Virus record (IMG/VR): IMGVR_UViG_3300006925_000188
Span: 1 to 21,456 of that record
Direction: 5' to 3' (one strand)
DNA from: a virus
Length of the DNA stretch: 21,456 nt
The notes under the pieces are model-generated. The model made no database searches. It saw only the letters and a list, made by a program, of their open reading frames with translations, and was not told the DNA's origin. Both the position numbers and the translations under genes were made by a program. Position 1 is the stretch's first letter. The number at the start of each line of letters is the position of its first letter. Of the stretch, positions 8,197 to 13,355 are shown piece after piece.

Positions 8197-8225
8197 ATTA
8201 TATAATTACCCTTGTTTTATGTCTG
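8197..8225 (-). promoter_or_regulatory. Accessory promoter P8190 (CAGACA-17-TATAAT)
   Basis: On the minus strand CAGACA (8225-8220), a 17-base spacer with AC at positions 5-6, and TATAAT (8202-8197). Six bases later comes the ATG at 8190, so a start seven bases after the -10 would be leaderless. The upstream box lies over the stop codon region of the preceding gene. One of eight copies. Confidence 0.75.
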
Positions 8226-8705
8226 TATAAAACTTGGAATACTTTTGTATATATTTTCTGATTCGTGAGCTACGTTACTTTTTTCTGCAATATAATACTG
8301 CCAATAAGCGTGTATAGCACTTTTGTGTTTGTACTGATCAGGCATACACTGAGGAGGTTCGCTAAAACCCACATTAAATATACCGCCAGGGTAACGTTTT
8401 AGAACGTCTTTACATTTTATAATTGTAAGATGTGTTTTGCCATAACGTTTGTTATATTCTTCGCCAAGCTTTATCATGTGATAATAGAGCCATAAATAAT
8501 GAGGAGCTGACTGCCTTACCCATATAGTTGATGGGTGGTTTTTATGTGCAACTCTATAAGGTATATCATCAGAATTACAAGGATCAAGTAAATGATGAGC
8601 TGTGCAAAGCATTTGCGCTGATTCTAAAATCATTTTTACCACGTGTTTGTTGTATTGTAGTTTAGCCGCTTCTGCTGGGTCTTTATGTAGATAAAATATA
8701 TTCAT
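8217..8705 (-). CDS. Conserved tailed-phage protein of unknown function (HKNHPS..W motif)
   Basis: A 162-residue protein with the pattern MNIFYLHKDPAEAAKLQYNK followed by HVVKMILESAQML and AHKNHPSTIWVRQS, then YLWLYYHMIKLGEEYNKRYGKTH and a PPQCMPDQYK segment. I recall this pattern from many phage genomes, where it is usually called hypothetical; some annotations liken it to pyrimidine-dimer excision proteins, which I cannot confirm. Conserved His, Lys, Asn and Trp would suit an enzymatic or nucleic-acid-binding site. It is monocistronic, with its own promoter directly upstream. Confidence 0.8.
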   Translation of the reverse strand: MNIFYLHKDPAEAAKLQYNKHVVKMILESAQMLCTAHHLLDPCNSDDIPYRVAHKNHPSTIWVRQSAPHYLWLYYHMIKLGEEYNKRYGKTHLTIIKCKDVLKRYPGGIFNVGFSEPPQCMPDQYKHKSAIHAYWQYYIAEKSNVAHESENIYKSIPSFIQT

Positions 8706-8711
8706 ATATAT

Positions 8712-8740
8712 ATTATATGTTTACTATAGTTGTTAATCTG
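8712..8740 (-). promoter_or_regulatory. Accessory promoter P8705 (CAGATT-17-TATAAT)
   Basis: CAGATT (8740-8735), a 17-base spacer with AC at positions 5-6, and TATAAT (8717-8712), then six bases to the ATG at 8705. The predicted transcript is leaderless. The upstream box lies inside the last codons of the preceding gene. This is the most divergent upstream box of the family. Confidence 0.65.
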
Positions 8741-8945
8741 TAATATATCTTTCCTTGTTTCTATCTATTATATCACCAATTTCATCTTGCATAGCTATTA
8801 TATCCATAGCTAGTAGTTGTATTTCTGCTAAACCATTAGCTTCATACGTGCTTAGATTATTGGTTTCGTTGTCTTGTATAGCGTTTACACAGTCTCGTAA
8901 TGCTTTTGCAGTGTTCTCAAACCTGCAGTAACTCATATTTGCCAT
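8733..8945 (-). CDS. Small conserved phage protein (MANMSYCRFENT type), unknown function
   Basis: A 70-residue protein starting MANMSYCRFENTAKALRDC, with acidic helices after it (LSTYEANGLAEIQLLAMDII). The MSYCRFENT opening recurs in small proteins of many marine and enteric phages, none characterised to my knowledge. It lies 20 bases downstream of the tRNA gene on the same strand and probably shares its transcript. Confidence 0.75.
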   Translation of the reverse strand: MANMSYCRFENTAKALRDCVNAIQDNETNNLSTYEANGLAEIQLLAMDIIAMQDEIGDIIDRNKERYITD

Positions 8946-8965
8946 ATTTAATTATTTAATGTTAG

Positions 8966-9038
8966 TTGCGGGAGAAGGATTTGAACCTCCGACCTTCGGG
9001 TTATGAGCCCGACGAGCTACCAACTGCTCTATCCCGCC
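8966..9038 (-). tRNA. tRNA-Met(CAT), initiator type (tRNA-fMet)
   Basis: The minus strand folds as a 73-base tRNA with acceptor GGCGGGA/TCCCGCA, D-arm GAGC...GCTC, anticodon arm TCGGG-CTCATAA-CCCGA and T-arm GGAGG-TTCAAAT-CCTTC. The anticodon is CAT. Two initiator hallmarks are visible: three consecutive G-C pairs at the base of the anticodon stem (GGG/CCC) and no Watson-Crick pair at 1-72 (G1 opposite A72). The 3' end is A73 followed by CTA, so CCA is not encoded and must be added. It would serve translation initiation or supplement host tRNA-fMet during infection. Confidence 0.93.
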
Positions 9039-9264
9039 TTATGAGAGGTAGAAGTTGTGGACTGGTAGTTAACTAGTATTGTCATTTATCCACAATTTCT
9101 GTTTTGAGCTAGCTGAAATGTCGCATTATTGCCCTAACGTGACCAGTATGCCGCCACCTCTCTGTCAGCTATTCACTTATGTGTGTGTAATACACTTCCG
9201 TACGTTCACATATGCCCGTCGACAGTCGACACCACATACACACCTAATTAAGCTAATCGTCTGA
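9039..9264. other. Non-coding region upstream of the tRNA, with palindromes and a weak promoter candidate
   Basis: 226 bases without a convincing gene and visibly richer in G+C than the flanks. Positions 9073-9101 (minus) give CAGAAA, 17 bases, TACTAG, a weak relative of the accessory promoters that lacks the AC in the spacer; it would start transcription about 28 bases before the tRNA. Positions 9218-9230 hold GTCGAC-A-GTCGAC. Other palindromes are TAGTTAACTA (9067-9076) and a GTGTGTGTAATACAC stretch (9181-9195). The rest could be an untranslated RNA, a regulatory region or a remnant. Confidence 0.4.
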
Positions 9265-9654
9265 CTATGTTACTTTTTGGCTTTGTAAGTCTTGTGCATA
9301 CCATTTTAAATCGTGGTGCATAAACAAACCGCCAATTTGACCTTTTTTAATTTTATTTATTAATTTGTCTTCAACCTCAAGTGGTAAGCTTTTTCTACCA
9401 CCAATAGACCACATTTTATTATGTTTTAATACAAACTCTCTGTCACTCATTCTATAATCATATATAGTATACAGGTTGTTGTCATACTCTAACACCCAAC
9501 AAACTTGTGTTTTGTTGTCTGATGTTTTTTCGGGTAATGTAGGTTCGCCTAATGCATCAACTAAATCAATATAACGTACATTGTAAAGAGATGCTAATTT
9601 GTGTGTGCCGCCGATATAAAATTCGTCGCCATTTTTTAGAACTTTTAATTTCAT
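9265..9654 (-). CDS. Phage protein of unknown function
   Basis: A 129-residue protein with a beta-rich layout: VDALGEPTLPEK, VCWVLEYDNNLYTIYDYR, then MWSIGGRKSLPLEVEDKLINKIK. The order ALGEPT, W.lEyd..l.TIYdyr, W.IGG recurs, as I recall it, in small proteins of marine phages of unknown role. It is monocistronic, with its own accessory promoter 16 bases upstream of the ATG. Confidence 0.7.
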   Translation of the reverse strand: MKLKVLKNGDEFYIGGTHKLASLYNVRYIDLVDALGEPTLPEKTSDNKTQVCWVLEYDNNLYTIYDYRMSDREFVLKHNKMWSIGGRKSLPLEVEDKLINKIKKGQIGGLFMHHDLKWYAQDLQSQKVT

Positions 9655-9670
9655 ATTTTTTATTTATTAT

Positions 9671-12419: not shown

Positions 12420-12448
12420 ATTATATAATTACTTGTGTATTATGTCTG
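12420..12448 (-). promoter_or_regulatory. Accessory promoter P12391 (CAGACA-17-TATAAT)
   Basis: CAGACA (12448-12443), a spacer of 17 with AC at positions 5-6 and ACAAGTAA, and TATAAT (12425-12420), then an A/T-rich leader. Expected start near 12413. Confidence 0.78.
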
Positions 12449-12647
12449 CAAAGGTGGATTGTTTATTTAAGTGTAGTAGAGGTATTAGGAGGTATAAAGC
12501 TCCGCCTCAAGGTGTGAGATTATTGAAAAAAGGTGACATAAGGCAGTATAATAAGGTATATTAGTGGCTAGTGTCACACTATTCTTTGCTTCGCTCTGCC
12601 ATTTTGCTATACATACTCCGCAAAGCGGAGCAGTACAGTTACTATTG
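12449..12647. other. Intergenic region with hairpin and repeats between two accessory units
   Basis: 199 bases with no supported gene. From the right, the 3' flank of the downstream-cassette gene contains a perfect hairpin CTCCGC-AAA-GCGGAG (12616-12630), the TGCTATACAT copy (12605-12614) of an intergenic repeat, and CTTTGCTTCGCT (12584-12595), repeated at 13004-13015. Further left, GTGACA (12534-12539) and TGTCAC (12572-12577) form an inverted pair, and AGGTGACATAAGG (12531-12543) nearly matches a site before the late genes. The hairpin has no T-run on either side, so a terminator is uncertain. Confidence 0.5.
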
Positions 12648-12881
12648 CTATTTGATTACTAGATCTCGAGCAAAGGTTGGCATGTTATTAGTAGCAGTGT
12701 ATGATTTGTACTTTTCAAAACACTTCATAGAATCAAAATGCTTTTTGTTTACTTTGTACACTTCATCATGATTGTACTTGAAAGACTTACCTTCTTTGTT
12801 AGTAAATTGAATAATTGAGTTCTTGCCAAGTAAAGATTTTCTGATTACAAATCTTTTTGTTTTAATAATAGAATTTTTCAT
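12648..12881 (-). CDS. Small basic phage protein, copy 1 of a tandem paralogue pair
   Basis: A 77-residue, lysine-rich protein (IKTKRFVIRKSLLGKNS, EGKSFKYNHDEVY, CFEKYKSYTATNN, PTFARDLVIK). By eye it is about 70% identical over 69 residues to the next gene upstream. The promoter at 12917-12945 leaves an approximately 28-base leader. The conserved core KRFVIRK..GKN..I.F..KEGK.FKYNHD suggests a small beta domain; function unknown. Confidence 0.75.
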   Translation of the reverse strand: MKNSIIKTKRFVIRKSLLGKNSIIQFTNKEGKSFKYNHDEVYKVNKKHFDSMKCFEKYKSYTATNNMPTFARDLVIK

Positions 12882-12916
12882 AGTATATATATTTAGTATT
12901 TATTAGTTACATTTAT

Positions 12917-12945
12917 ATTATAGTCACTTGCTCGTATTGTGTCTG
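12917..12945 (-). promoter_or_regulatory. Accessory promoter P12881 (CAGACA-17-TATAAT)
   Basis: CAGACA (12945-12940), a spacer of 17 with AC at positions 5-6 and GCAAGTGA, and TATAAT (12922-12917). A second copy of the upstream box with its flank (12956-12970) lies exactly 25 bases further upstream. Expected start near 12910. Confidence 0.78.
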
Positions 12946-12970
12946 TTATTCTTCGCTCGTGACCTGTCTG
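12931..12970 (-). repeat. Pair of 15-base repeats 25 bases apart upstream of P12881
   Basis: CTCGTATTGTGTCTG (12931-12945) and CTCGTGACCTGTCTG (12956-12970), plus-strand reading. The proximal one spans the upstream box and part of the spacer of the promoter; the distal one repeats it. The layout is the same before the paralogous gene at 13341-13380. Confidence 0.7.
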
Positions 12971-13033
12971 TGCTATACACACAAAGAGGAGCATTACACT
13001 CCCCTTTGCTTCGCTTTACCAAGAAGAAACTCC

Positions 13034-13291
13034 CTACAGTAGGAAGTCTCTTGCGAATGTTGGTACATTGTTTGTTGCAGTATATGACTTATACTTCTTG
13101 AAACAGTTCATACCTTCAAACCTTTTCTTGTTACTAGTATATACTTTGTCATGGTTATACTTGAATGTCTTACCTTCTTTTGTTTTGAATTCAATCGTCA
13201 CATTCTTACCGATTAGATTCTTTCTGATCACAAACCTTTTAGTAGTTAGTTTAGTTTGTTTAACACTTGGATTACTTGATTCTTTTTTCAT
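13034..13291 (-). CDS. Small basic phage protein, copy 2 of a tandem paralogue pair
   Basis: An 85-residue protein with an extra charged N-terminus (KKESSNPSVKQTKLT) and then the same core as the neighbouring copy (TKRFVIRKNLIGKN, EGKTFKYNHDKVY, CFKKYKSYTATNN, PTFARDFLL). Gene starts, promoters and upstream repeats of the two copies are all offset by 410 bases, so gene and control region were duplicated together. Function unknown. Confidence 0.75.
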   Translation of the reverse strand: MKKESSNPSVKQTKLTTKRFVIRKNLIGKNVTIEFKTKEGKTFKYNHDKVYTSNKKRFEGMNCFKKYKSYTATNNVPTFARDFLL

Positions 13292-13326
13292 AATTATTTA
13301 TTTAGATTTATTTATTAGTTATATAT

Positions 13327-13355
13327 ATTATATAAATATACTCGTGACTCGTCTG
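13327..13355 (-). promoter_or_regulatory. Accessory promoter P13291 (CAGACG-17-TATAAT)
   Basis: CAGACG (13355-13350), a spacer of 17 with AC at positions 5-6 then GA, and TATAAT (13332-13327). The 15-base element around the upstream box (13341-13355) is repeated perfectly 25 bases upstream (13366-13380). Expected start near 13320, a 29-base leader. Confidence 0.77.

Follow-up and report, generated by a model that had tools for sequence, protein, structure and literature searches.

The question raised by this locus is what reads a promoter that recurs ahead of one run of small genes after another in an uncultured virus. The window analysed is the whole 21,456 base stretch of IMG/VR virus record IMGVR_UViG_3300006925_000188, and it carries eight copies of a bipartite motif between positions 8197 and 13355, together with genes for a sigma-70-family factor and a helix-turn-helix (HTH) protein. 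The eight promoters are real, and their design is common to more than 100 uncultured phages that carry a sigma factor of their own. The phage sigma factor probably recognises these promoters, and these phages most likely redirect the host transcription enzyme to small accessory genes via a private start signal. The evidence throughout is sequence, most of the contigs are incomplete, and related phages represent non-independent samples.

Promoter copies in the window

A sequence-only reading had described a CAGACA-like box, 17 bases and a perfect TATAAT at eight positions on the minus strand. All eight were found at those positions, with a spacing of exactly 17 bases and TATAAT in every copy. 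The CAGACA box is exact in five, the remaining three being CAAACA, CAGACG and CAGATT, and spacer positions 5–6 are AC in all eight, followed by AA (three sites), GA (three), AC (one) or TA (one). A search for CAGACAN17TATAAT identified five matches, all on the minus strand, compared with 0.02 in each dinucleotide shuffle (maximum of 1 in 400 shuffles), and the relaxed pattern CARAY-N5-AC-N11-TATAAT was found eight times versus 0.0075 expected from shuffles, a clear excess and not an equal frequency. With three mismatches permitted, the pattern was no commoner than chance (56 versus 53), and the signal therefore lies in near-exact sites. The Bacteroidota pattern had been judged not to fit, and neither element of TTTG/TAnnTTTG is present at any of the eight sites.

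Two parts of the earlier description required revision. The upstream element is not a hexamer, its conserved part covering about 14 bases (CARACNNAANACRA), and a ninth candidate promoter (CAGACTAAAAACGACACATTTTGGATAAT; coordinates 6533–6561, minus strand) had been overlooked. This site has the GATAAT typical of the wider lineage and is located ~380 bases upstream of the HTH and sigma genes. The same sequence is present in three near relatives, and it has the top score among the sites of the clade. The gene behind it is listed as 6293–6541, with an uncertain start codon as the listed TTG is upstream of the predicted +1.

At all eight sites a purine stands seven bases past the −10, and this is the predicted +1. 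Promoters 1 (CAGACATAAAACAAGGGTAATTATATAAT; 8197–8225, minus strand as for all that follow) and 2 (CAGATTAACAACTATAGTAAACATATAAT; 8712–8740) are of a leaderless type in which the predicted +1, at 8190 and 8705, is the A of the ATG of genes 8002–8190 and 8217–8705, respectively. Promoter 3 (9671–9699) precedes gene 9265–9654 (predicted +1 9664, leader of 10 nucleotides (nt)), and promoter 4 (10401–10429), which has the CAAACA box, precedes genes 10067–10366, 9846–10070 and 9727–9858 (+1 10394, leader 28 nt). Promoter 5 (11551–11579; +1 11544, leader 11 nt) heads a run of six small genes (11533 to 10432), and promoter 6 (12420–12448; +1 12413, leader 22 nt) one of four (12391 to 11585). Promoter 7 (12917–12945; +1, a G, at 12910) and promoter 8 (13327–13355; CAGACG box; +1 13320) precede genes 12648–12881 and 13034–13291, each with a predicted leader of 29 nt.

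Every site thus precedes a minus-strand gene run, and the earlier view of one promoter for each accessory unit stands to that extent on the basis of gene layout. However, the tRNA-Met gene (8965–9038) and the gene at 8733–8945 have no copy of their own in the window. The tRNA-Met gene is followed by ~225 noncoding bases between genes 9265–9654 and 8733–8945, and window positions 8965–9264 are a possible noncoding RNA region.

Box-like copies with no −10, read from the sequence, are located on the minus strand 25 bases upstream of promoter 7 (CAGACAGGTCACGAG; 12946–12970) and promoter 8 (CAGACGAGTCACGAG; 13356–13380). The sequence TGCTATACAC or its complement is repeated at 9715, 12605, 12970 and 13381, ahead of several promoters and close to the additional boxes. 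The genes behind promoters 7 and 8 are similar small neighbours of unassigned function, each with its own promoter copy, and homologues were found in 23 loci. The side of the window with the plus-strand tail genes had no promoter sites, and a terminator-like hairpin (CGGCCCGTGGGCCTTTT; 13450–13470) is located in the divergent region ahead of these genes.

Distribution and anatomy of the motif

Near relatives of the window include one contig that is identical in the genes compared and two that are ~96% identical in primase and sigma factor. They retain the sites wherever the contigs cover them, with altered spacer letters; the spacer of promoter 1, for example, is TAAAACAAGGGTAATTA in the window and TAAAACAAACAGAAACA in relative L009. 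The window primase-helicase has 209 relatives in IMG/VR. The form of the motif in relatives is CAAACTAAAYACGA-N9-GATAAT. When a matrix built from the window sites was applied to upstream regions of the relatives, 63 matches of at least 10 bits were found in other loci versus ~1 in shuffles. The scan was confined to upstream regions because a hexamer enrichment at spacing 17 over the whole relatives, which was rejected, had been swamped by conserved coding sequence.

Refinement of the matrix on 78 loci (1.37 Mb) gave 275 matches in 60 loci, of which all but one (274) shared a strand with the primase and sigma genes, compared with 3 for the reversed matrix, and a lineage consensus of CAAACTAAATACGA-N8-gGATAAT. 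A scan across IMG/VR identified at least 119 stretches with the motif and none with the backwards motif. Among 834 sites, 763 were found upstream of an HTH gene start; as these loci were cut around sigma or primase genes, that count alone cannot show absence elsewhere, but whole-contig counts do. Each of 16 contigs of 64–72 kb carries 4–12 sites, almost all on one strand and in one region, with 0 in the backwards control. After removal of one spurious row, 124 distinct phages with at least three sites remained, each with its own motif variant; the first positions may read CGTA or CAGA, for example, and the −10 GATAAT or TATAAT. The motif was not described in the titles or abstracts of the open-access papers retrieved by literature searches on phage sigma promoters.

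The spacing is close to invariant. Among 652 distinct boxes picked regardless of the −10, [GT]ATAAT follows at a distance of exactly 17 bases in 619, and distances of 16 and 18 were each seen once. In 95.1% of 853 sites a purine occupies the seventh position past the −10, and the base before it is a pyrimidine in ~75%. This signature is independent of how sites were found, but in the leaderless class the purine is provided by the ATG itself. In the leadered class (283 sites), base 7 is a purine in essentially all cases and G in 76%, and this purine is likely to be the transcription start.

The gap between −10 and ATG in the 853 sites has a peak at 6 (128 sites). Gaps of 4 and 8 are also elevated, and a second, broad peak covers 25–28. 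A gap of 6 places the +1 on the A of the ATG. Gaps of 4, 6 and 8 account for 201 sites (24%) that would start at or no more than 2 bases from the ATG, a fraction that is approximate because starts were set by a first-ATG rule. For comparison with these predicted sites, leaderless mRNAs make up 5.5% in Flavobacterium psychrophilum, as given in passages of PMC9723704.

Candidate readers of the promoters

Two candidates had been put forward earlier, namely the phage sigma factor and a host sigma factor helped by an activator. The phage factor (252 amino acids (aa); 4790–5548, minus strand) was assigned regions 2, 3.0 and 4 from profile, Pfam and fold searches. In profile comparison, its family aligns with regions 2 to 3.0 of SigA and with regions 2, 3 and 4 of FliA, and Pfam domains Sigma70_r4 and Sigma70_r2 were found in 46 and 45 of 55 members, respectively. 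In a fold search, the top matches of its structural model were all sigma factors; the single domains are modelled well, and their relative placement poorly (predicted template modelling score, pTM, 0.46). The gene was found in 29 of 50 motif-bearing contigs, including all 14 of at least 60 kb, with one copy containing stops. That copy is in the 65 kb motif-bearing record L118 (G022), where the gene (55767–56520) is broken perhaps by sequencing error.

The HTH protein (214 aa, C-terminal HTH_11; 5511–6155, minus strand) is encoded by a gene that overlaps the sigma gene by 38 bases and was also found in 29 of the 50 contigs, the same contigs of at least 60 kb included. A fold search returned nothing significant, and no MotA family was present among its Pfam and PHROGs matches, in a scan of a subset of the window proteins. 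An inverted repeat, TGTGACAATAG...GGCTAATGTCACA, is conserved across the HTH start codon (ATG TCA CA) in the window (6143–6193, minus strand) and most relatives, has a predicted RNA fold z of −3.9, and may be an autoregulatory operator or RNA switch. Further copies of this palindromic element of ~47 bases are scattered between accessory genes, at 12526–12580 in the window and in relatives such as L246 and L259. The 46 distinct two-arm copies, 5 of them within open reading frames and often with A-runs and T-runs outside, could be operators for the HTH protein or bidirectional terminators.

Several observations favour the phage sigma factor as reader. In addition to its sigma-70 profile and its presence in every sampled contig of at least 60 kb, the motif was found in 0 of 198 Bacteroidota genomes, and in three metagenome-assembled genomes (MAGs) with a related sigma factor the clear matches were confined to the phage contig. 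The base at −12 tracks a residue in the region predicted to read the −10. All five mainly-TATAAT phages have K at sigma residue 102, whereas GATAAT-type phages mostly have S or A and never K. Placed from the profile alignment in region 2.3/2.4, this residue adjoins the tryptophan pair of sigma-70 region 2.3. Among five proteins compared, T or G at −12 was perfectly split by two alignment columns, both in the sigma factor, and the other four proteins had no such column. With primase, single-stranded DNA-binding protein and exonuclease as controls, −10 differences between phages correlated with sigma region 2 (partial r 0.24, p 0.003) and barely with the HTH protein (0.06).

Other observations weigh against the sigma factor as sole or proven reader. 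Differences in the outer box (CARAC) were uncorrelated with sigma region 4 after control, and likewise with the HTH protein, and column-by-column covariation for positions 2–14 gave no clear reader, the top columns being in unrelated proteins. An upstream element of 14 bases exceeds the usual contact of region 4. The HTH gene always accompanies the sigma gene, and co-occurrence therefore cannot single out the latter. In the sigma tree, the T-type phages group as a single, moderately supported clade, and the association between −12 and residue 102 therefore amounts to little more than one event. Individual sites also break the rule, as the clade of the window includes one GATAAT site and a phage with S102 has a T-type site. 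The latter phage came from a search for additional TATAAT-type phages, in which the returns were largely chance matches in coding sequence; its contig, the one new find that encodes the sigma factor, has no second site and speaks slightly against strict covariation. Recognition is deduced from sequence, and correlations of this kind fall short of proving binding.

The nearest alternative overlaps with recognition by the sigma factor. The sigma factor would read the −10, and perhaps the outer CARAC, with the HTH protein binding the inner AATACGA as a required built-in activator, and the pair would jointly read a long-element (−35 to −22) composite promoter of accessory genes, around a quarter of them leaderless, across a large uncultured lineage. 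Such a required role for the HTH protein is a tentative proposal, and we consider the composite promoter that depends on it possible but doubtful. It would account for conservation as far as −22, where the HTH protein may read the ACGA (−25 to −22), and for differences in the inner box (positions 8–14) that track the HTH C-terminal domain (partial r 0.148, p 0.003) and not sigma region 4; the two overlapping genes, always found together, also suit it. However, this correlation is small, boxes lacking a −10 are scarce (at most 33 of 652), and a separate HTH site is suggested by the TGTGAC...GTCACA palindrome that is conserved across the HTH start codon. The HTH protein is also a possible co-activator or autoregulator.

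Middle promoters of phage T4 are read by host sigma-70 with MotA and AsiA, and combine an upstream box near −30 with a TATAAT −10. An equivalent arrangement, with the host primary sigma factor reading TATAAT and a phage activator substituting for the −35 contact, would suit the perfect TATAAT of the window, which resembles a sigma-70 −10, and its conserved box near −30. However, a phage sigma factor is present here, the −10 tracks that factor and for the majority of the lineage is GATAAT, the HTH protein has no MotA-family match in Pfam or PHROGs, and passages of PMC6847099 indicate that the primary sigma factor of the likely host phylum reads TAnnTTTG, not TATAAT. The sequence evidence favours the sigma factor. 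The activator option of the earlier reading is on this evidence unlikely in its T4 form but holds in part, as the HTH protein may read the additional conserved ACGA. Exploitation by the phage of promoters of a host alternative sigma factor is less probable again. The hosts have several such factors, but the motif was not seen in the 198 genomes, nor clearly outside the phage contig in the three MAGs, and one host factor would have to serve more than 100 divergent phages. Duplication of boxes 7 and 8, with the others arising by chance in AT-rich sequence, is hardly credible; sites 7 and 8 do share similar surroundings, extra box copies and alike downstream genes, but orthologous sites keep box and −10 while spacers diverge, and the fixed spacing, single strand, +1 purine and lineage-wide presence also oppose it.

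Hosts, known systems and significance

Of the systems compared, sigma-28 (FliA) ranks among the top profile matches over the full length of the phage sigma factor. The FliA consensus is TAAA-N15-GCCGATAA, in which the −10 contains GATAA. It differs from the lineage consensus, which has neither a TAAA −35 nor a GCCGATAA −10, in spacing and in lacking the CARAC..ACRA element. SPO1 gp28 and gp33/34 and T4 gp55 are sigma-type factors that switch the host polymerase to phage promoters; they have another consensus and serve middle or late genes genome-wide, unlike the accessory set in the window. Passages of PMC8948821 describe eight promoters for the phage 7-11 sigma factor SaPh711_gp47 (GTAAtg-(16)-aCTA), and passages of PMC4331800 give TAATGTATA as the consensus for phiEco32 gp36. 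In these systems too, the phage encodes a sigma-like protein and repeats a cognate consensus at several of its promoters, but in the passages compared the consensus and spacing differ, late (and middle) genes are served rather than an accessory cluster, and no leaderless class is reported. Their sigma factors had no detectable relation to that of the window lineage in a tblastn search of the phage collection. Service of late structural genes, a usual though not a defining feature of known phage sigma sets, was not found here, the sites in the 65 kb contigs being on the sigma strand upstream of the HTH and sigma genes. A phage sigma factor with repeated cognate promoters is therefore of a known kind, and what is new is the consensus, the length of the upstream element, the service of accessory genes and the leaderless class.

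The nearest isolate phages by primase-helicase include Cellulophaga, Tenacibaculum and Flavobacterium phages (<45% identity), and the host is therefore likely to belong to the Bacteroidota. Nine MAG contigs encode a related sigma factor, three of them labelled Bacteroidota; the other labels may be binning errors. No sigma factor is annotated in Cellulophaga phage phi10:1, the nearest by primase (42.8%). In the isolate phage collection, the window sigma factor had no tblastn match and that of a relative only matches of 23–33% identity (E 0.004–0.07), so this search gave no isolate with a known host. Passages of PMC6847099 and PMC9723704 describe the primary promoters of this phylum, where Shine-Dalgarno leaders are scant; the flavobacterial primary sigma factor reads TTTG/TAnnTTTG (PMC6847099), with TTTG at −33 and TAnnTTTG at −7, both absent from the eight sites. 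That pattern is not enriched in these phages, being rarer than its backwards control, and its one match in the window is outside the sites.

In the mechanism proposed, the sigma factor would join host core RNA polymerase and direct it to a bipartite promoter. The long upstream element of this promoter spans −35 to −22 and reads CARACNNAANACRA in the window and CAAACTAAATACGA in relatives, the spacing is invariant at 17 bases, and the −10 is TATAAT in the clade of the window and GATAAT in the majority of the lineage. Initiation would occur at the purine 7 bases past the −10, and the regulon would comprise the cluster of small accessory genes that share a strand with the sigma and replication genes, with leaderless or near-leaderless mRNAs for part of the cluster. 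We infer recognition by the sigma factor, use of host core polymerase and timing in infection.

No isolate turned up in this analysis, and the motif defines a testable regulon for a large phage lineage, along with a 29-base marker able to pick the lineage from metagenomes. As the motif predicts the start to the base, public metatranscriptomes could test it directly. The leaderless class is relevant to translation in hosts that dispense with Shine-Dalgarno leaders, and the collection of >120 distinct sigma sequences, every one paired with sites of its own, is a natural resource for learning how sigma residues control promoter specificity.

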